Below are positions 26,759 to 37,648 of a stretch of 64,000 bases of DNA, in pieces (positions within the stretch are counted from its first letter, which is position 1; each line of letters begins with the position of its first letter). The stretch is from Streptomyces griseiscabiei (GTDB lineage Bacteria > Actinomycetota > Actinomycetes > Streptomycetales > Streptomycetaceae). The notes below the pieces were generated by a model that saw nothing but the letters and a program-made list of their open reading frames with translations, had not been told where the DNA came from and did not search any database. Location: positions 3,389,001 through 3,453,000 of the forward strand of contig NZ_JAGJBZ010000001.1 of assembly GCF_020010925.1 (NCBI RefSeq). The letters are read 5' to 3'. Made by a program: the position numbers and the translations under genes.

Positions 26759-27967
26759 ATGACCGCTATGACCCCCGGCTCGAACATCCCGCTGCCCGTC
26801 ACCCACGTCGCGGTGGACGTCGCCGCACCCGTGCGGCTCGACGTATCGGGCCTGCTGCTCACCGCCGACGGCAAGGTGCGCTCGGACGACGACTTCATCT
26901 TCTACAACCAGCCGACCGGCCCGGGAGTGACGTACCGCTCCGGCGGCGGCGCGGCCCCCGACTCGATCACGGTGGACACCACGGCCGTCCCGCCGGACAT
27001 CGAGAAGATCGTCGTCACGGCCAGCCCGGACGCGGCGGGCCAGTCGTTCCAGGGCATCGAGCCGACGGCGACGATCCGCAACGCGGCGGACGGCTCGGTG
27101 ATCTCCACGTTCACCCCGCCGCGCCTCGGCCCCGAGACGGCCCTGGTGATCGTGGAGATTTATCTGCGCAACGGCGCGTGGAAGGCCCGCGCGGTGGGCC
27201 AGGGCTACGCGAACGGCCTCGCGGGCATCGCCACGGACTACGGCGTCACGGTGGAGGACCCCGCCCCGACCCCCGCCCCGACCCCGACTCCGGCCCCCGC
27301 CCAGGTACGGCCCGTCACCCCGCCCCCGGCCCCGCAGGTCACCCCACCCCCGGTCCCCGCGACCCCTCCCGCCCCCGCCCCCGGCGCCGGCAAGATCAAC
27401 CTGGACAAGGGCCGCGTCAGCCTCCAGAAGAACCAGACGGTCTCCCTGGTCAAGGGCGGCCGCCCACTTCTCTCCCAGGTCAAGATGGGCCTCGGCTGGG
27501 AGCCCGCGTACCGGGGCAAGGACATCGACCTGGACGCGTCGGTCATCGCGTACGGCCCGCAGCGCAACCACATCGACAGCTGCTACTTCGGCAAGCTCTC
27601 GATCGTCAACGGCGCGATCAAGCACTCCGGTGACAACCTCACGGGCGAGGGCGGAGGCGACGACGAGGTGATCGTGGTCGACCTCGGACGGCTCCCCCAG
27701 GAGGTCACCGGCCTGGTCTTCACCGTCAACTCCTTCTCCGGCCAGAAGTTCACCGAGGTCGCCAAGGCCTACTGCCGCCTCCTGGACGCCGCCTCCGGCG
27801 AGGAACTGGTCCGCTTCGACCTCACCAACGCCGAGGCCCAGACCGGCGTGATGATGGCCAAGCTGATCAAGCAGTTCACCGGTGAGTGGGAGATGACCGC
27901 GATGGGCGACTTCGTGAAGTCCCGCACGGTCAGGGGGATGGTGAAGCCGGCGGCCCAGGCACTCTGA
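26759..27967 (+). CDS. TerD-family protein with two TerD-like domains
   Basis: 402 residues. Residues about 1-165 form a first TerD-like domain (RLDVSGLLLTADGKVRSDDDFIFYNQP, then VIVEIYLRNGAWKARAVGQGY). A Pro/Ala/Thr-rich linker of about 45 residues follows (170-215), then a second TerD domain (220-400) with VSLVKGGRPLLSQVKMGLGWEP, DIDLDASVIAYG, HSGDNLTGEGGGDDEVIVVDL. The acidic DDD/DLDAS and GDNxTGEGxGDDE motifs are the Ca-binding sites of TerD. The family belongs to tellurite and stress-response systems with unclear biochemistry. No other ter genes are adjacent. Confidence 0.87.
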   Translation: MTAMTPGSNIPLPVTHVAVDVAAPVRLDVSGLLLTADGKVRSDDDFIFYNQPTGPGVTYRSGGGAAPDSITVDTTAVPPDIEKIVVTASPDAAGQSFQGIEPTATIRNAADGSVISTFTPPRLGPETALVIVEIYLRNGAWKARAVGQGYANGLAGIATDYGVTVEDPAPTPAPTPTPAPAQVRPVTPPPAPQVTPPPVPATPPAPAPGAGKINLDKGRVSLQKNQTVSLVKGGRPLLSQVKMGLGWEPAYRGKDIDLDASVIAYGPQRNHIDSCYFGKLSIVNGAIKHSGDNLTGEGGGDDEVIVVDLGRLPQEVTGLVFTVNSFSGQKFTEVAKAYCRLLDAASGEELVRFDLTNAEAQTGVMMAKLIKQFTGEWEMTAMGDFVKSRTVRGMVKPAAQAL

Positions 27968-28045: not shown

Positions 28046-29065
28046 TCACTGGATGACGCCGCTGTACGCGTTCAGCGCGGGCTGCCCGCCGAGGTGGGCG
28101 TACAGGACCGTGGAGTCCGGACCGATCTCGCCGCGCTCGATCAGATCGACCATCCCGGCCATGGACTTGCCCTCGTAGACAGGGTCGGTGATCATGCCCT
28201 CGGTGCGGGCGGCCAGCTGCATGGCGACGAGGGTGGCGTCGTCCGGGACACCGTAGATCCCGCCGTGGTACCGCTCGTCCAGCTCCACATCGGCGACGGT
28301 CAACTCCCGCTTGAGGCCGATGAGCCGCCCGGTGTTGTGGGCGATGCGGGCGACCTGCTCACGGGTGGAGTCCGGCTTGGCCGAGGCGTCGATGCCGATC
28401 ACCCGGCGCGGCCGTCCACCCGCCTCCTCCAGCGCGGCGAACCCCGCGACCATGCCGGCCTGGGTGGAGCCGGTCACCGAGCACACGATCACCGTGTCGA
28501 AGAAGACGTCCAGCTCCCGCTCCTGCTCGGCGACCTCGTACGCCCAGCCGGCAAAGCCCAGACCGCCGAGGGGGTGGTCGGAGGCACCGGCCGGGATGGC
28601 GTACGGCTTGCCGCCGCCCTCCTCGACCTCCCTGAGCGCCAGCTCCCAGCTCTCCTTGAAGCCGATGCCGAATCCGGCCCGGACGAGCCGTACGTCGGCT
28701 CCGGCCAACCGGCTGATCAGGATGTTGCCGACCTTGTCGTACACGGCGTCCGGCCAGTCGACCCAACTCTCCTGCACGAGCACGCACTTGAGCCCGGCGC
28801 GGGCGGCGACGGCGGCGACCTGACGGGTGTGGTTGGACTGCACACCGCCGATGGAGACAAGGGTGTCGCAGCCTTGGGCGAGCGCGTCGGCGACCAGGTA
28901 CTCCAGCTTGCGGGTCTTGTTGCCGCCGTACGCGATACCGGAGTTGCAGTCCTCGCGCTTGGCCCAGACGGAGGCGCCGCCGAGGTGGGCGGTCAGCCGC
29001 TCCAGCCGGTGGACCGGCGAGGGCCCGAAGAGGAGCGGGTAGCGCTCGAAGGAAGAAAGGGACAC
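28046..29065 (-). CDS. acdS: 1-aminocyclopropane-1-carboxylate deaminase
   Basis: 339-residue PLP enzyme of the tryptophan-synthase-beta fold, converting ACC (the ethylene precursor) to 2-oxobutyrate and ammonia. PLP Lys is K50 in [10 protein letters not shown]; nucleophile Ser77 lies in [11 protein letters not shown]. The two positions that separate true ACC deaminases from D-cysteine desulfhydrases are Glu298 (VYEGKS) and Leu325 (YAHLGGQ), both of the deaminase type. GTG start with GGGAGG 6 nt before. The GntR gene lies upstream on the same strand and ends 77 nt before it; no operon overlap. Fits a soil or plant-associated lifestyle. Confidence 0.92.
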
Positions 29066-29142: not shown

Positions 29143-29976
29143 TCAGTGGTTCGCTTCGGGGGCAGGGGCCGGGGCCGGGACATCGACGGAGTGGGGGTCG
29201 TCGACGGGGAGGGGGTCGTCCACGGGGTGCGGGGCGGGCCGGTCGTGGGCCGCCCCCGCGGATTCCCCGGGCGACGTATGGGACGCCCCGTCGCCCGGCT
29301 CATGCGCGGGCCCACCGCTCGGCTCCCCGTCCGGCTCGTCGGCGAGCGCGGCCAGGCCGTGCCAGATCTCCGCCGTGACGCGGACCGCCTCGTCCGTGTC
29401 GCCGACCGCGCAGGCCGCGATCAACTGCTCGTGCAGTCCGGCCGAACGGCAGTTGCCGCCCTCGCCGAAACGCCGGCGCTCCAGACGCCGGATGAGCGGG
29501 GTGTAGCGGGCGATCGTGGCGGCGGCGGCGCGGTTGCCGCTCACCCGGACGAGGACGTCGTGGAGTTCGTCGTCGGCGACCAGGGCGGCGTCGACGTCGC
29601 CCGAGCCGACGGCCGCGGCGAACCGCTCGTTGGCCGAGCGCATCGTCTCCACGTCCGCCGCGAACAGCCGGGGCACGGCGGTGCGGGTGGCCAGCTCGTG
29701 CATCGCGCCGACCACGGCGGCGGCGTCCCGCACATCGGCGGCCACGACGGGCGTGACCCGGGTGTAGCTCTGCGGCTTGCTCTCCAGCAGCCCCTCGTCC
29801 ACCAGCCGCGAGAACGCCTCCCGCACCGGTGCCCGCGACAGCCCCAGCAGTTCGGCGAACTCGGCGTCGCGCACCACCGCGCCGGGCTCGATCTCCCCGG
29901 CCACGATGGCGTCCCGGATGGCTTGGTAGGCACGGTCCCTGAGCAGGGTGCGGCCGACCGGTCGTATGGCCTCCAT
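29143..29976 (-). CDS. GntR-family regulator with FCD domain and acidic/Pro tail
   Basis: 277-residue FadR-type regulator. Winged helix at about 10-75 ([40 protein letters not shown]). FCD domain 85-220 with DDELHDVLV and [12 protein letters not shown]. The C-terminal 50 residues are low-complexity Pro/Asp/His/Ala ([18 protein letters not shown]), unusual for the family. It precedes the ACC deaminase gene and likely controls it. The ATG follows a dyad and -10-like box so closely (8 nt) that the transcript may be leaderless. Confidence 0.88.
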
Positions 29977-30091: not shown

Positions 30092-31684
30092 TCAGCCCCG
30101 TCCGTGGGCCCACGGCCAGTCGGCGTCCCGGGCCGCCTCCAGCAGCGGCACCGTCCGGAAGGCCGCGTCCGAGAGGCCGCCGAAGGTGTGGCGGTTCCGG
30201 CTGCCGGAGTGGCCGTGACCCGCCCGGTAGCCGGCCAGGTTCCAGGTGTAGACGGGTACACCGGCCGGGATCTGCGCGGTCGGGTCGCCGTAGTGGCTGT
30301 AGGTGGCCTGCTCGTCGGTGACGATCAGCACCCGGTCGTGCTTGCGGTAGTGGCGGCGGACGGCCTCGGTGGTGTCGGTGCCGCCCAGGTCGCCGAACCG
30401 CTGGATGATCTTCAGCACGGACTCGCCCGTGCCGTACTTCACCGCCCGGCTCGTGCTCCCGAACTCGACGAGGTCCGCGTCCGCCGCCCGCAGCGCGAGC
30501 GCCGTGCCGAAGATCGCCGCCGCGTCCGCGTAGGTGAGCGAGGAGCGGTCGGTCAGCCGGGAGTGGAACATCGAGCCCGAGCGGTCGACCAGGACCAGGG
30601 TCCGGCCGGGCAGCGCGGGCACGTTGGCCAGCGAGTGACCGAGCGCCTGCTCCAGCGGGTACGCCCAGCGCAGCGAGGGCGCGTGGCGGTAGGCCGAGAG
30701 GTAGCGGAACGGGAACTGCCGCGACCGCGCGACCTCCGCCGGGTCACTGATCCGCGCCGCCACCCGGGCCGCGACCTCGTCGGAGACACCCGCCTCGTCG
30801 AAGTTGCGCAGGTTGCGGACGAGGGCCATGGCACCCATGGACGGAATGACCGCCTCCCACGCCGCCTGGTCCATCGGCCCCTGCAGCCAGCCCGCCAGCG
30901 CCTCCCAGGTGATCCCCGCGTCCGCGAGGCGCCGGGAGCCGCCCGCACCGGTCACGACCTTGCGCCGCTTGGCGGGCCGCAGCTCCATCAGGTCGCGGTG
31001 GGCCGCGAGCATGGGCAGCGACCTGGGCACGACGGCCGTGTCCGGGTTGTGGCGCCGGTCGAGGGCGTACTGGAACAGGTCCCCCTGCCACGGCTTGTCC
31101 GGGTCCGGCGCGGCGTGCACCAGGTTCAGGATGTCGCCGAAGCGGTAGCCCTTGGACGCGGTGTCGTACTTCAGCAGCGACCTGGGGCTGTAGAGGCGTC
31201 GTACGGCGTCGGCGACACCGCGCTTCACCGGCTTGGGGAGGTTGCGCCCGTACCGCGAGGTCCAGTAGGCCAGCAGCTCACCGGGCTCGTCCGGGCGCCG
31301 CAGCACCGAGTCGACGACCTGACGGTTGGTGGGCCCGTCGGTGACGCCCGCGTCGAGACGCGCCTTCACGTACTCGGCGGCGCCCACGATGGAGGCCGTA
31401 CGGAGGTTGCCCTCGCCGCGCAGCCAGCCGAGCAGGCCGGCCGTCCACTCCGGGTCGGTGACGGCGAGCCGGCGCACGAGCGCGACGAACCGGTCGTCGC
31501 GGTCCTCGCCGCTCTCGTAGAAGGTCTTCTGCGCGACGAAGTTGGCGATCGACAGCAGGAACAGCTCAGAGCGCTCGTCCCGCTCACGGCCCCGGCCGCC
31601 CTCGTACGTACGAAGCACCTGCCCTGTCGAGGTGACCCGCGAGGTGGGCCGCGCCTTTCCTGCCTTCGTGTTGAATCGCGCCAT
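30092..31684 (-). CDS. rsr: Rsr, Ro60/TROVE-domain RNA-binding protein
   Basis: 530-residue bacterial orthologue of the Ro60 autoantigen. Residues about 20-350 form the HEAT-like TROVE ring (QVLRTYEGGRGRERDERSEL, LGWLRGEGNLRTASIVGAAE, PKPVKRGVADAVRRLYSPRS). The C-terminal von Willebrand A domain has a MIDAS motif DRSGSM at 367-372. Known bacterial Rsr proteins bind Y RNAs and act in RNA quality control with PNPase or other nucleases after stress. Two Y-RNA-like genes lie just upstream on the same strand. ATG 31684 has GGGGG 8 nt before it, but that sequence is locked in a hairpin. An in-frame upstream ATG at 31705 would add seven residues. Confidence 0.93.
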   Translation of the reverse strand: MARFNTKAGKARPTSRVTSTGQVLRTYEGGRGRERDERSELFLLSIANFVAQKTFYESGEDRDDRFVALVRRLAVTDPEWTAGLLGWLRGEGNLRTASIVGAAEYVKARLDAGVTDGPTNRQVVDSVLRRPDEPGELLAYWTSRYGRNLPKPVKRGVADAVRRLYSPRSLLKYDTASKGYRFGDILNLVHAAPDPDKPWQGDLFQYALDRRHNPDTAVVPRSLPMLAAHRDLMELRPAKRRKVVTGAGGSRRLADAGITWEALAGWLQGPMDQAAWEAVIPSMGAMALVRNLRNFDEAGVSDEVAARVAARISDPAEVARSRQFPFRYLSAYRHAPSLRWAYPLEQALGHSLANVPALPGRTLVLVDRSGSMFHSRLTDRSSLTYADAAAIFGTALALRAADADLVEFGSTSRAVKYGTGESVLKIIQRFGDLGGTDTTEAVRRHYRKHDRVLIVTDEQATYSHYGDPTAQIPAGVPVYTWNLAGYRAGHGHSGSRNRHTFGGLSDAAFRTVPLLEAARDADWPWAHGRG

Positions 31685-31692
31685 GATGAATT

Positions 31693-31720
31693 CCCCCGAA
31701 TACATGGGTATTTCGGAGGG
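31693..31720 (-). promoter_or_regulatory. Hairpin sequestering the rsr ribosome binding site
   Basis: In the rsr leader CCCTCCGAAATAC (31720-31708) pairs with GTATTCGGGGG (31703-31693): about 11 bp with one bulged A and a CCAT tetraloop. The GGGGG is the only good Shine-Dalgarno sequence for ATG 31684. Pairing would reduce translation until opened. It could also mark the 3' boundary of the upstream RNA. Confidence 0.65.
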
Positions 31721-31736: not shown

Positions 31737-31888
31737 GGGTGACCGAGGTCGAATTCGGCGGCGGTGCTATGACTGGCGCGTCTTCCGTTCCGCCACACCG
31801 ACCCTGAGTCGATCACGGGATTCGAACCCGCACGGGGTTTTCTCCCCACCAGTTCCCGAAGTATCCGCTGCCTGCGCACCGGGCACCC
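31737..31888 (-). ncRNA. Y RNA (YrlA-like) copy 2 with permuted class II tRNA-like module
   Basis: Read 5' to 3' on the minus strand (152 nt). Outer stem: GGGTGCCCGG (31888-31879) with TCGGTCACCC (31746-31737). Inner stem: GGCAGCGG (31872-31865) with CCGCCGCC (31764-31757), one A-C mismatch. Anticodon-stem-like ACTGG (31853-31849) with CCAGT (31776-31772). Long variable arm GGGG-AGAAAA-CCCC (31847-31834). T arm with TTCGAAT loop (31831-31815). Acceptor 3' strand GATCGAC (31814-31808), 5-nt loop, acceptor 5' strand GTCGGTG (31802-31796). D arm GCG...CGC. The tRNA is thus opened at the anticodon and closed at the acceptor end. The long variable arm and GGCGGAACGGAAGACGC D region look leucine-tRNA-like. 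Known bacterial Y RNAs have this layout; the assignment here rests on hand folding. Confidence 0.82.
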
Positions 31889-31901
31889 ACCATCTGCCGC
31901 G

Positions 31902-31935
31902 CCTCCCGAGATAGACGAGCGCACCGGGAGGTGCG
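31902..31935 (-). terminator. Competing hairpins between the two Y-RNA units
   Basis: CGCACC-TCCC-GGTGCG (31935-31920) is a perfect 6-bp tetraloop hairpin. CCTCCCG (31931-31925) can instead pair with CGGGAGG (31908-31902). Either could terminate or help process copy 1; the alternatives are mutually exclusive. Confidence 0.45.
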
Positions 31936-31947
31936 TAAAGCCTTGGG

Positions 31948-32089
31948 TGTCCAGAGATCGAATTCGGCGGAACCGACGTAGGTGCTCTAACCAACTGAGC
32001 TACACCGGCGTGTTGGTACCGGTGGCGGGACTCGAACCCGCGGCCTCCCCATTATAAGTGGAAGTAGGTCCTGCCTTCGCACCTGGACA
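31948..32089 (-). ncRNA. Y RNA (YrlA-like) copy 1 with permuted class I tRNA-like module
   Basis: 142 nt on the minus strand. Outer stem: perfect TGTCCAG (32089-32083) with CTGGACA (31954-31948). Inner stem: GGCAGGACC (32075-32067) with GGTTCCGCC (31974-31966), with an A-C mismatch at the same place as in copy 2. T arm GCGGG-TTCGAGT-CCCGC (32041-32025). Acceptor 3' strand CACCGGT (32024-32018) followed by ACCA, short loop, acceptor 5' strand GCCGGTG (32009-32003). D arm GCTC-AGTTGGTTA-GAGC (32000-31984) with the GG needed for D-T loop contact. A further small hairpin (TTCCA-CTTATAA-TGGGG) fills the anticodon side. A TAGAGT box ends exactly where a start at 32089 predicts. Encoded directly upstream of rsr. 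Confidence 0.85.
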
Positions 32090-32095
32090 GGCATC

Positions 32096-32101
32096 ACTCT
32101 A
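32096..32101 (-). promoter_or_regulatory. -10 box TAGAGT for the Y-RNA/rsr unit
   Basis: TAGAGT fits the TAGPuPuT form of streptomycete -10 boxes. Six nt downstream, the first base of the outer stem of Y RNA copy 1 is reached. No clear TTGAC -35 box is seen 17-18 nt upstream, so strength or sigma type is uncertain. Confidence 0.5.
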
Positions 32102-35824: not shown

Positions 35825-37648
35825 TTGCCGAGCAAGAGAACCGCGCGCATCGGCGCGCTGACCGTCGCCACCATCTGCTCCACCGTGTCCGCCGTGGTCC
35901 TGACCTCGCCCGCAGAGGCGGACTCCATCCGCATCCACGACATCCAGGGCACCACCCGGACGTCCCCGCTCGTCGGCCAGCAGGTCGCCGGGGTGCAGGG
36001 CATCGTCACCGGCGTGCGCACCTACGGTTCGCGCGGCTTCTGGATCCAGGACCCCCAGGCGGACACCAACCCCGCCACGAGCGAGGGTGTCTTCGTCTTC
36101 ACCAGCTCCCGGCCGACGGTCTCGGTGGGCGACGCGGTGACGGTCGCGGGCACGGTCGGCGAGTTCATACCGGGCGGCACTTCGTCCGGAAACCAGTCTG
36201 TGACGCAGATCTCCCGCCCGACGATCACGGTCGTCTCCACGGGCAACGCCGTCCCGGCCGCGACCGTCATCGACCACAAGTCCGTGCCGAAGAAGTACGC
36301 CCCGGTCGGTGACCCGGCCGCCGCCGGCTCGGTCAACGGCCTCACGCTCGCCCCGGACACGTACGCCCTGGACTACTACGAGTCCCTGGAGGGCATGAAC
36401 GTCCAGGTCGCCGACACCCGCGTGGTCGGCGCCACCGACCCGTTCACCGAGCTGTGGGTCACGGTGAAGCCCCGGGAGAACGACAGCCGCCGCGGCGGCA
36501 CGGTCTACGACTCCTACACCTCGCAGAACACCGGCCGGATCCAGATCCAGTCCCTCGGCGCGGTCGCCGACTTCCCGAAGGCGAACGTCGGCGACACCCT
36601 GGAGGGCACCACGGCCGGTCCGCTGGACTACAACCAGTTCGGCGGCTACACCCTCGTCGCCAACCAGCTCGGCACCCTGAAGCAGGGCGGTCTGGAGCGC
36701 GAGACGACCCAGAAGCAGGAGCGCGGCGAGCTGGCCGTGGCGACCTACAACGTCGAGAACCTGGACCCCTCGGACGCCTCCTTCGCGGACCACGCGGCGG
36801 CGATCGTGCACAACCTGCAGTCGCCCGACATCGTGGCCCTGGAGGAGATCCAGGACAACAACGGCGCCACCAACGACGGTACGGTCGCCGCCGACCGGAC
36901 GGTGAAGAAGCTGATCGACGCGATCACGGCGGCGGGCGGCCCGGCGTACGACTGGCGCTCCATCGACCCGGTGAACCTCGCGGACGGCGGTGAGCCCGGC
37001 GGCAACATCCGCCAGGTCTTCCTGTTCAACCCCGAGCGGGTCTCCTTCACCGACCGTGCGGGCGGCGACGCCACGACGGCCGTCGGCGTGACGCAGGAGG
37101 ACGGCGAGGCCCGGCTGACGGTCTCCCCCGGCCGTGTCGACCCGGCGAACGCCGCCTGGACGAACAGCCGCAAGCCGCTGGTCGGCGAATTCTCCTTCCG
37201 CGGCAAGTCCGTCTTCGTGATCGCGAACCACTTCGCGTCCAAGGGCGGCGACCAGGCGCTGCACTCGGAGTTCCAGCCGCCGAAGCGCTCCTCGGAGACC
37301 CAGCGCCACCTCCAGGCGACCGCCGTGAACGGCTTCGTGAAGCAGATCCTCGCGAAGGACAAGAAGGCGGCCGTCATCGCCCTCGGCGACATCAACGACT
37401 TCGAGTTCTCCGACACCACGGAGCTGCTGGAGGACGGCGGCGCCCTGTGGTCGGCGGTCAAGTCGCTGCCGAAGTACGAGCGCTACTCGTACGTCTTCCA
37501 GGGCAACACCCAGGTCCTCGACCAGATCCTGGTCAGCCGGTCGATCCGGCGCGCCGACGGATTCGCGTACGACAGTGTGCACACGAACGCGGAGTTCAAC
37601 GACCAGATCAGCGACCACGACCCGCAGGTGCTGCGCTTCGAGCCGTAG
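35825..37648 (+). CDS. Secreted endonuclease/exonuclease/phosphatase-family protein (ExeM/NucH-like)
   Basis: 607-residue extracellular nuclease-like protein. TTG start at 35825 is supported by GGAGGG 5-6 nt before it and by the signal peptide that follows (SKRTARIGALTVATICSTVS, cleavage near SPAEA). An N-terminal OB-like region (SIRIHDIQGTTRTSPLVGQQ, GVFVFTSSRPTVSVGDAVTV) covers 35-290. The catalytic EEP domain covers 300-605: VATYNVENLDP, PDIVALEEIQDNNG, VIANHFASKGGD, IALGDINDFEFS and ISDHDPQVL. These carry the metal and catalytic His/Asp residues of DNase I-like enzymes. Probably degrades extracellular DNA for nutrients; phosphodiester specificity untested. Confidence 0.9.
   Translation: MPSKRTARIGALTVATICSTVSAVVLTSPAEADSIRIHDIQGTTRTSPLVGQQVAGVQGIVTGVRTYGSRGFWIQDPQADTNPATSEGVFVFTSSRPTVSVGDAVTVAGTVGEFIPGGTSSGNQSVTQISRPTITVVSTGNAVPAATVIDHKSVPKKYAPVGDPAAAGSVNGLTLAPDTYALDYYESLEGMNVQVADTRVVGATDPFTELWVTVKPRENDSRRGGTVYDSYTSQNTGRIQIQSLGAVADFPKANVGDTLEGTTAGPLDYNQFGGYTLVANQLGTLKQGGLERETTQKQERGELAVATYNVENLDPSDASFADHAAAIVHNLQSPDIVALEEIQDNNGATNDGTVAADRTVKKLIDAITAAGGPAYDWRSIDPVNLADGGEPGGNIRQVFLFNPERVSFTDRAGGDATTAVGVTQEDGEARLTVSPGRVDPANAAWTNSRKPLVGEFSFRGKSVFVIANHFASKGGDQALHSEFQPPKRSSETQRHLQATAVNGFVKQILAKDKKAAVIALGDINDFEFSDTTELLEDGGALWSAVKSLPKYERYSYVFQGNTQVLDQILVSRSIRRADGFAYDSVHTNAEFNDQISDHDPQVLRFEP

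Follow-up and report, generated by a model that had tools for sequence, protein, structure and literature searches.

Immediately upstream of rsr in Streptomyces griseiscabiei, a gene for a TROVE/Ro60-like protein, lie two tandem structured RNAs on the same strand with a short hairpin between them (Table 1). All are in the middle of the window, by which we mean the whole 64,000-nt stretch of DNA analysed. This cassette of RNAs ends 53 nt from the rsr start codon, and a PhoX-type phosphatase gene precedes it in the same direction. With rsr queries taken as 30092-31672, i.e. without the first four residues, Rsr matches the Pfam TROVE family at 50.3 bits, limited to residues 269-328, and the TROVE proteins 9l5y and 9kop in the PDB at E about 4e-29. 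The inverted repeat directly 5' of rsr has, by eye, a resemblance in several relatives. The original prediction had placed two tandem units here on the minus strand, and on rechecking their coordinates hold, as do the T loops TTCGAGT and TTCGAAT and the GG of both D loops. The acceptor pairing is likewise present, with seven of seven pairs in unit 1 (CACCGGT/GCCGGTG) and six of seven in unit 2 (GATCGAC/GTCGGTG), where the outermost pair is G-G. Elsewhere in the window are an ACC deaminase gene (28046-29065; NCBIfam TIGR01274, 554.7 bits) adjoined by a GntR/FCD regulator gene (29143-29976), a gene for a TerD-domain protein (26759-27967), and one for an ExeM/NucH-like extracellular nuclease that scores under its NCBIfam cut-off (35825-37648).

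Table 1. Features of the Y RNA cassette and rsr; positions are those of the window.
Feature	Position	Strand	Sequence or remarks
Y RNA unit 1	32088-31949	minus	140 nt; R2 match 129.4 bits, with covariation
Unit 1 basal Ro60-type stem			GTCCAG/CTGGAC; conserved internal loop GGTGCGA..GATCTC; class I tRNA within, complete and circularly permuted, with the opening at 26/27
Unit 1 anticodon arm	32047..32063	minus	TTCCA-CTTATAA-TGGGG; positions 27-43, 7-nt loop, anticodon TAT
Unit 1 T arm	32025..32041	minus	GCGGGTTCGAGTCCCGC
Unit 1 acceptor stem	32003..32024	minus	CACCGGT / GCCGGTG; closing loop ACCAACAC
Unit 1 D arm	31984..32000	minus	GCTC-AGTTGGTTA-GAGC
Shortened mini-Y hairpin	31902..31931	minus	CCTCCCGGTGCGC...ATCTCGGGAGG; between units 1 and 2
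Y RNA unit 2	31887-31738	minus	150 nt; R2 match 113.9 bits, with covariation
Unit 2 basal stem			GGTG.CCG/CGG.CACC; class II (Leu-like) tRNA within, with the opening in the anticodon loop
Unit 2 positions 39-43	31849..31853	minus	ACTGG; pairs with 27-31 CCAGT at 31776-31772
Unit 2 long variable arm	31832..31848	minus	TGGGGAGAAAACCCCGT
Unit 2 T arm	31815..31831	minus	GCGGGTTCGAATCCCGT
Unit 2 D arm	31778..31793	minus	GCGG-AACGGAAG-ACGC; Leu-like
-10-like element	32096..32101	minus	TAGAGT; ends 7 nt 5' of unit 1
Inverted repeat	31693..31720	minus	CCCTCCGAA...TTCGGGGG; directly 5' of rsr, overlaps likely Shine-Dalgarno GGGGGAA; read from sequence
rsr	30092..31684	minus	TROVE/Ro60-like protein, 530 aa; ATG at 31684

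From its 5' end, unit 1 runs through the basal stem and then, at canonical lengths, the anticodon arm, a variable loop AGGCC (positions 44-48) and the T arm, and back through the loop-closed acceptor stem, U8, A9, the D arm and A26 to the returning strand of the basal stem. Unit 1 thus contains every arm of a tRNA, four in all, in permuted order, the break lying between positions 26 and 27. Positions 8-26 are identical, at 20 of 20 nt, to the corresponding part of a tRNA-Lys(CTT) of the same genome. Among the 46 unit 1 orthologues of two-unit cassettes, taken unfiltered, the anticodon arm forms all five pairs at fixed geometry in 44. A repeat count of the loops in these cassettes, without the class A filter described below, finds four loop bases (C32, U33, U36 and A38) each retained by 45 of 46 sequences and A37 by 41, while positions 34 and 35 vary. 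Covariation of the anticodon helix is modest: both partners differ in two of its five pairs, one going from C-G to G-C (6 of 52 rows) and the other from A-U to G-C (1 row). Paralogues elsewhere carry other anticodons, and 19 different ones occur among 71 class A loops, a set defined by U33, a purine at 37 and at least four pairs, in which the counts at 33 and 37 are partly by construction; it is what remains of 72 rows after removal of L139, a class II RNA that had been misparsed. Y RNAs with a Glu-like D arm (L062-L064, L097, L099, L109, L116, L118, L121, L128, L133 and L138) also have a complete anticodon arm, and are sited away from the rsr matches of their genomes.

When put back into conventional order, 73 of 73 such RNAs (the 72 class A rows including L139, plus L128) are called as tRNAs by ARAGORN, as against none of 1460 dinucleotide shuffles; without re-ordering, a tRNA is called in 14 of the 73. 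Because 1252 of 1460 sequences still pass when the anticodon arm alone is shuffled, ARAGORN is uninformative on that arm, which is supported instead by the conserved loop and by covariation. It had been thought likely that tRNA gene finders would miss both units; ARAGORN is indeed silent at unit 2, but at unit 1 it reports a 'tRNA-Ile(tat)' at 32092-32014, the 5' part of the unit taken as an ordinary tRNA. To accept that call at face value, as an ordinary tRNA-Ile(tat) gene beside unrelated sequence, would almost certainly be a mistake, for the pairing that covaries is the permuted one, and three annotated phage tRNAs by Ro-like genes (see below) show the same kind of overlap with full-length Y RNA matches.

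A related reading takes unit 1 as a permuted gene for a working tRNA, whose ends are joined or trimmed to give a chargeable molecule. The four arms of canonical length and the ARAGORN calls on re-ordered sequences would suit such a product, as would the acceptor loop in the window, which starts ACCA. Against it, anticodon positions 34-35 differ between orthologues, acceptor loops vary and often read TTCGG or another sequence without CCA, the Ro60-type stem is conserved, and none of the 71 matches of the Rfam tRNA family in the genome falls at this locus. We consider this reading very improbable. The unprocessed RNA, whose acceptor end is capped by a short loop, is not expected to accept an amino acid.

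Unit 2 is built differently. The CCAGT that follows its D arm pairs with the ACTGG that precedes the variable region, and the opening lies in the anticodon loop. The claim that the tRNA was opened at the anticodon consequently fits unit 2, with its paired positions 27-31 and 39-43, but not unit 1, which keeps positions 27-43 intact and is opened at 26/27. By its predicted pairing, unit 2 imitates a Leu-like tRNA of class II, long variable arm included. Its 5' half is nearest to tRNA-Leu(gag) (identity 0.85 vs 0.77 for the next kind), and since 3' halves indicate no single tRNA, we do not claim descent from a named tRNA gene. The 46 unit 2 copies are mixed in this respect: 17 carry a class II D arm, 15 of these together with a long variable arm; in 24 the D arm is of class I (TA-GCTC), one of them scored as long, and the other 5 are of other form or misparsed. 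Among opened RNAs more generally, a long variable arm was scored in 21 of 25 with a class II-type D arm vs 7 of 67 others, some of these probably parser errors. In six genomic loci (L080, L122, L139, L141, L148 and L149) a further Y RNA with a class II-type D arm lies directly downstream of a metK-like gene, which we take to be metK from a MetK motif found in 6 of 6; a shorter Y-like match lies ahead of this RNA in four of the six (L080, L122, L139, L148).

The paired structure is supported by compensatory change. In an alignment of 32 relatives (18 unit 1 copies and 14 unit 2 copies), standard pairs fill 95.5% of 862 cells, 13 of 29 pairs change on both sides, and none of 500 shuffled controls reaches any of five measures. 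The order described for YrlA (T arm, acceptor 3' strand, loop, acceptor 5' strand, D arm) is present here, and the basal helix is 99.5-100% paired with changes on both sides. Six of the seven acceptor pairs of unit 1 change on both sides in a set of 52 rows, in which the D helix is invariant; the latter varies only in the alignment of 32 relatives. Unit 1, the mini-Y and unit 2 all have the basal stem, its internal loop (GGTGCG.A ... GATCTC) and the sequence UACUUC or one close to it. The layout originally proposed is thus upheld as to its pairing by these compensatory changes, but it had missed the anticodon arm of unit 1, the anticodon stem and long variable arm of unit 2, and the hairpin at 31931-31902.

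In tRNA, position 15 of the D loop and position 48, before the T stem, form the Levitt pair. Among 160 of 165 parsed RNAs, all mutually related and with five excluded for want of A14 or for a D stem of fewer than three pairs, 15-48 is G-C in 101, A-U in 57 and another combination in 2, and in none is it A-C or G-U. Within class A there are 68 G-C and 4 A-U, and within class B, the opened RNAs, 30 G-C and 53 A-U. The D-loop GG occurs in 161 of the 165, found with a parser that favoured GG and demanded T54, C56 and A58. All counts are raw, over relatives that are not independent, so that a Fisher value computed for the 15-48 pairs is no true probability. Single-sequence energy models give a different picture. 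The fold drawn for unit 1 lies 10.6 kcal/mol above the energy optimum, which retains the basal, T, acceptor and D helices but replaces the anticodon hairpin by one with a 6-nt loop and pairs the internal loop; a slightly longer stretch has a folding z of -2.44. The fold drawn for unit 2 is 14.5 kcal/mol above an optimum that is not tRNA-like, with a z of -0.25 over 148 nt. Such models disfavour the drawn folds, which, if correct, must be stabilised by protein or by tertiary contacts.

No Rfam family matches in the window at its gathering threshold. Below it, YrlA (RF02553) matches unit 1 at 39 bits (E 5e-7; gathering 69) over model positions 24-84, and does not match unit 2 even at E 10. The RNAs are therefore 'YrlA type', as first described, in a broad sense, with unit 1 under the cut-off of that covariance model and unit 2 beyond its reach. 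The unit 1 orthologue of another genome (G013) gives 31.5 bits, again over model positions 24-84, while three opened (class B) relatives match YrlA from end to end at 41, 49 and 56 bits, also under the cut-off. An Rfam model without a counterpart to the unit 1 anticodon arm would be expected to give this pattern. None of 149 genomes drawn from the phylum has a match passing the 69-bit cut-off, and yrlA has been described as predicted in some mycobacteria (PMC9569102).

We searched 61 genomes for the rsr protein and read the upstream DNA at the 30 loci returned; a scan with a T-arm pattern, in which some loci were read on the wrong strand, marks unit 1 at 16 of the 30 and unit 2 at 15. A covariance model, R2, gave a sharper result. 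With matches counted from at least 60 bits, it finds the RNAs in every one of the 33 genomes whose rsr is clear (E below 1e-100) vs none of 27 others, which lack rsr or have weak TROVE-like matches alone (3 of 27). One genome counted apart (G045) has a divergent TROVE gene and a 61.6-bit R2 match. In 150 genomes of the genus, matches at E 1e-9 or better occur in 74 of 81 with rsr vs 1 of 69 without. The sole rsr-less exception, G149 (L240, L135), has its Y RNA beside a decayed rsr, of which fragments of residues 55-139 and 443-499 are left. Among the seven rsr genomes without a full-length match, six (L227-L232) have a short Y-like match (E below 1e-3) within about 1 kb upstream of rsr, and one (L233) has no Y-like match in that interval. 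All 80 named Streptomyces rsr loci kept from 259 relatives found have a full-length match, some with one unit. Streptomyces coelicoflavus NBRC 15399 (L302) and S. tendae (L305) have the two-unit cassette, with the anticodon arm present in unit 1. Background matches of R2 at about 42-49 bits (model positions 30-119) occur in most Streptomyces searched and were set aside; those of the window's genome span two tandem tRNA genes. A second rsr lineage, 64-70% identical, is found beside the first or alone (G013, G016, G063, G125, G134, G158 and others), with short Y-like matches upstream in most cases searched.

Covariation, co-occurrence with rsr in both genome sets and the sub-threshold YrlA match of unit 1 together bear out the central claim, that tandem Y RNAs with permuted tRNA-like modules precede rsr. 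Judged from sequence, these are almost certainly Rsr-linked Y RNAs, and a Y RNA cassette serving the Ro60-like protein Rsr is, with good probability, the best explanation of the stretch as a whole.

The hairpin between the units is a shortened form of a third RNA. A full-length mini-Y of 67-76 nt, without a tRNA module, lies between the units in 41 of 46 cassettes; its stem is the same Ro60-type stem, with UACUUC or a near variant, and its outer seven pairs are kept in 39-41 of 41. It is shortened in 4 of 46 (the window, L113, L145 and L146) and absent in one (L093). All 46 cassettes have a -10-like TANNNT 6-8 nt upstream of unit 1; none has it at that spacing upstream of unit 2 (0 of 46) or of the mini-Y (0 of 45). 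We infer a single transcript start at unit 1 and a precursor that extends into rsr and is then processed. Most likely, a single promoter would set the start at about the first base of unit 1, transcription would run through the mini-Y and unit 2 into rsr, and the precursor would be cut into separate RNAs.

Such an arrangement also brings to mind a mainly cis-acting leader, in which Rsr would bind the leader of its own mRNA and repress rsr, with the tRNA modules there to help the leader fold. The short distance from the cassette to the start codon and the inverted repeat covering the likely Shine-Dalgarno would fit this, as would the short Y-like stems that also precede the second rsr lineage. 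We nevertheless hold it to be quite unlikely as the main role, because full-length Y RNAs also occur far from rsr, e.g. after metK, and there at least should act in trans.

For the Y RNA cassette, the working parts can be proposed by analogy. YrlA is described as bound at its stem by Rsr and at its tRNA-like domain by PNPase (PMC8394870; PMC4726728). Here, the basal stem with its conserved internal loop would be the Rsr binding site in each RNA, and the tRNA modules of units 1 and 2 would recruit a tRNA-binding partner. The likeliest use, by homology, would be that of the published model, in which the Y RNA tethers Rsr to the exonuclease PNPase and so guides the decay of structured RNA; whether the cassette tethers Rsr to PNPase or another tRNA-binding enzyme we would put at about even chances. 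The conservation of the 15-48 pair, of the form of the anticodon loop and even of class II variable arms suggests that tRNA mimicry by Y RNAs is not limited to the T, D and acceptor arms. Which tRNA-binding protein reads these features, and what purpose the anticodon has, are the questions that follow.

Some jumbo phages are described as encoding a TROVE protein (PMC7824862). All 17 viral contigs carry such RNAs (two contigs having identical ones), as do all five phage loci examined of 94 records matched, and at these five loci tRNA genes are annotated near the Ro-like gene. Some of the phage Y RNAs have an anticodon arm (e.g. L339, L342). Beside Ro-like genes, the annotated tRNA-Ser(gct) of phage Alone3 (L339:2762-2835), tRNA-Pro(tgg) of Frankenweenie (L341:2733-2823) and tRNA-Arg(tct) of VanLee (L342:2581-2652) each overlap a full-length Y RNA match, and are probably the 5' parts of permuted Y RNAs mis-called. 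R2 finds actinobacterial and phage Y RNAs that fall under the Rfam cut-off and that tRNA finders can mis-label as tRNAs. The 15-48 counts in phages (G-C 22, A-U 10, A-A 2, A-C 1) are less clean than the bacterial ones, from a parser that misreads some phage RNAs (39 distinct sequences, 1 unparsed and 2 without class). The presence of tRNA genes together with such RNAs near Ro-like genes would fit a possible part in tRNA damage and repair.

One could go further and suppose that unit 1 and RNAs like it act as decoys or sensors of anticodon nucleases: their complete anticodon loop, held by Rsr, would lure tRNA-cutting RNases in stress or phage attack. The loop retains its tRNA form (CU-NNN-AA, 7 nt, on a 5-bp stem) though the RNA should not decode, 19 anticodons are spread over the class A loops, and Y RNAs, some with an anticodon arm, also lie where phages have a Ro-like gene next to tRNA genes. 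A role of YrlA as a competitive inhibitor has been raised by Hughes et al. 2020, in whose account YrlA itself is not a substrate of an anticodon nuclease (PMC7790460). However, U36 is fixed in 45 of 46 unit 1 orthologues, so that these loops are not free to match any target, and unit 2 has no closed anticodon loop. We rate such a role for unit 1 as unlikely. The same low weight attaches to a broader speculation, that actinomycetes and their phages keep Rsr-bound RNAs presenting whole tRNAs, both class I with an anticodon arm and class II, and that Rsr complexes may act as decoys, sensors or repair platforms against tRNA-cutting toxins with the anticodon arm as bait.

That Y RNAs mimic tRNAs in permuted form is already known, since the solved Y RNA 6CU1 is described as superposing on tRNAs with circular permutation (PMC11472068). 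By title and abstract opening, we found in the open-licence literature no Streptomyces Y RNAs or Y RNA with an anticodon arm, and neither the class II form nor the three-RNA cassette; these features may, tentatively, be additions to what is known. Among other systems with rearranged or imitated tRNAs, the permuted tRNA genes of algae and archaea likewise place the 3' half before the 5' half and join the acceptor ends by a short spacer. These yield working tRNAs, whereas here the conserved element is a stem of protein-binding type, and neither the anticodon nor CCA stays constant. The tRNA mimicry of tmRNA (RF00023) is reflected in a weak match to unit 1 (20.9 bits vs gathering 47, under the cut-off), but here the arms are permuted and the RNA gene is linked to rsr. 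With YrlA of Salmonella and others (structure 6CU1) the cassette shares the Ro60-type stem, the permuted T arm, acceptor stem and D arm, and a gene adjoining rsr; it differs in the whole anticodon arm of unit 1, such an arm being absent from the Rfam consensus as read off the alignment, and in the class II long variable arm and Leu-type D arm of unit 2. The Deinococcus complex of Y RNA, Rsr and PNPase (RYPER), as described in PMC8394870 and PMC4726728, suggests the likely architecture, an Rsr ring on the stem with an effector at the far end, although here there is a cassette of two tRNA-like RNAs and a mini-Y, and contact with PNPase would follow by homology.
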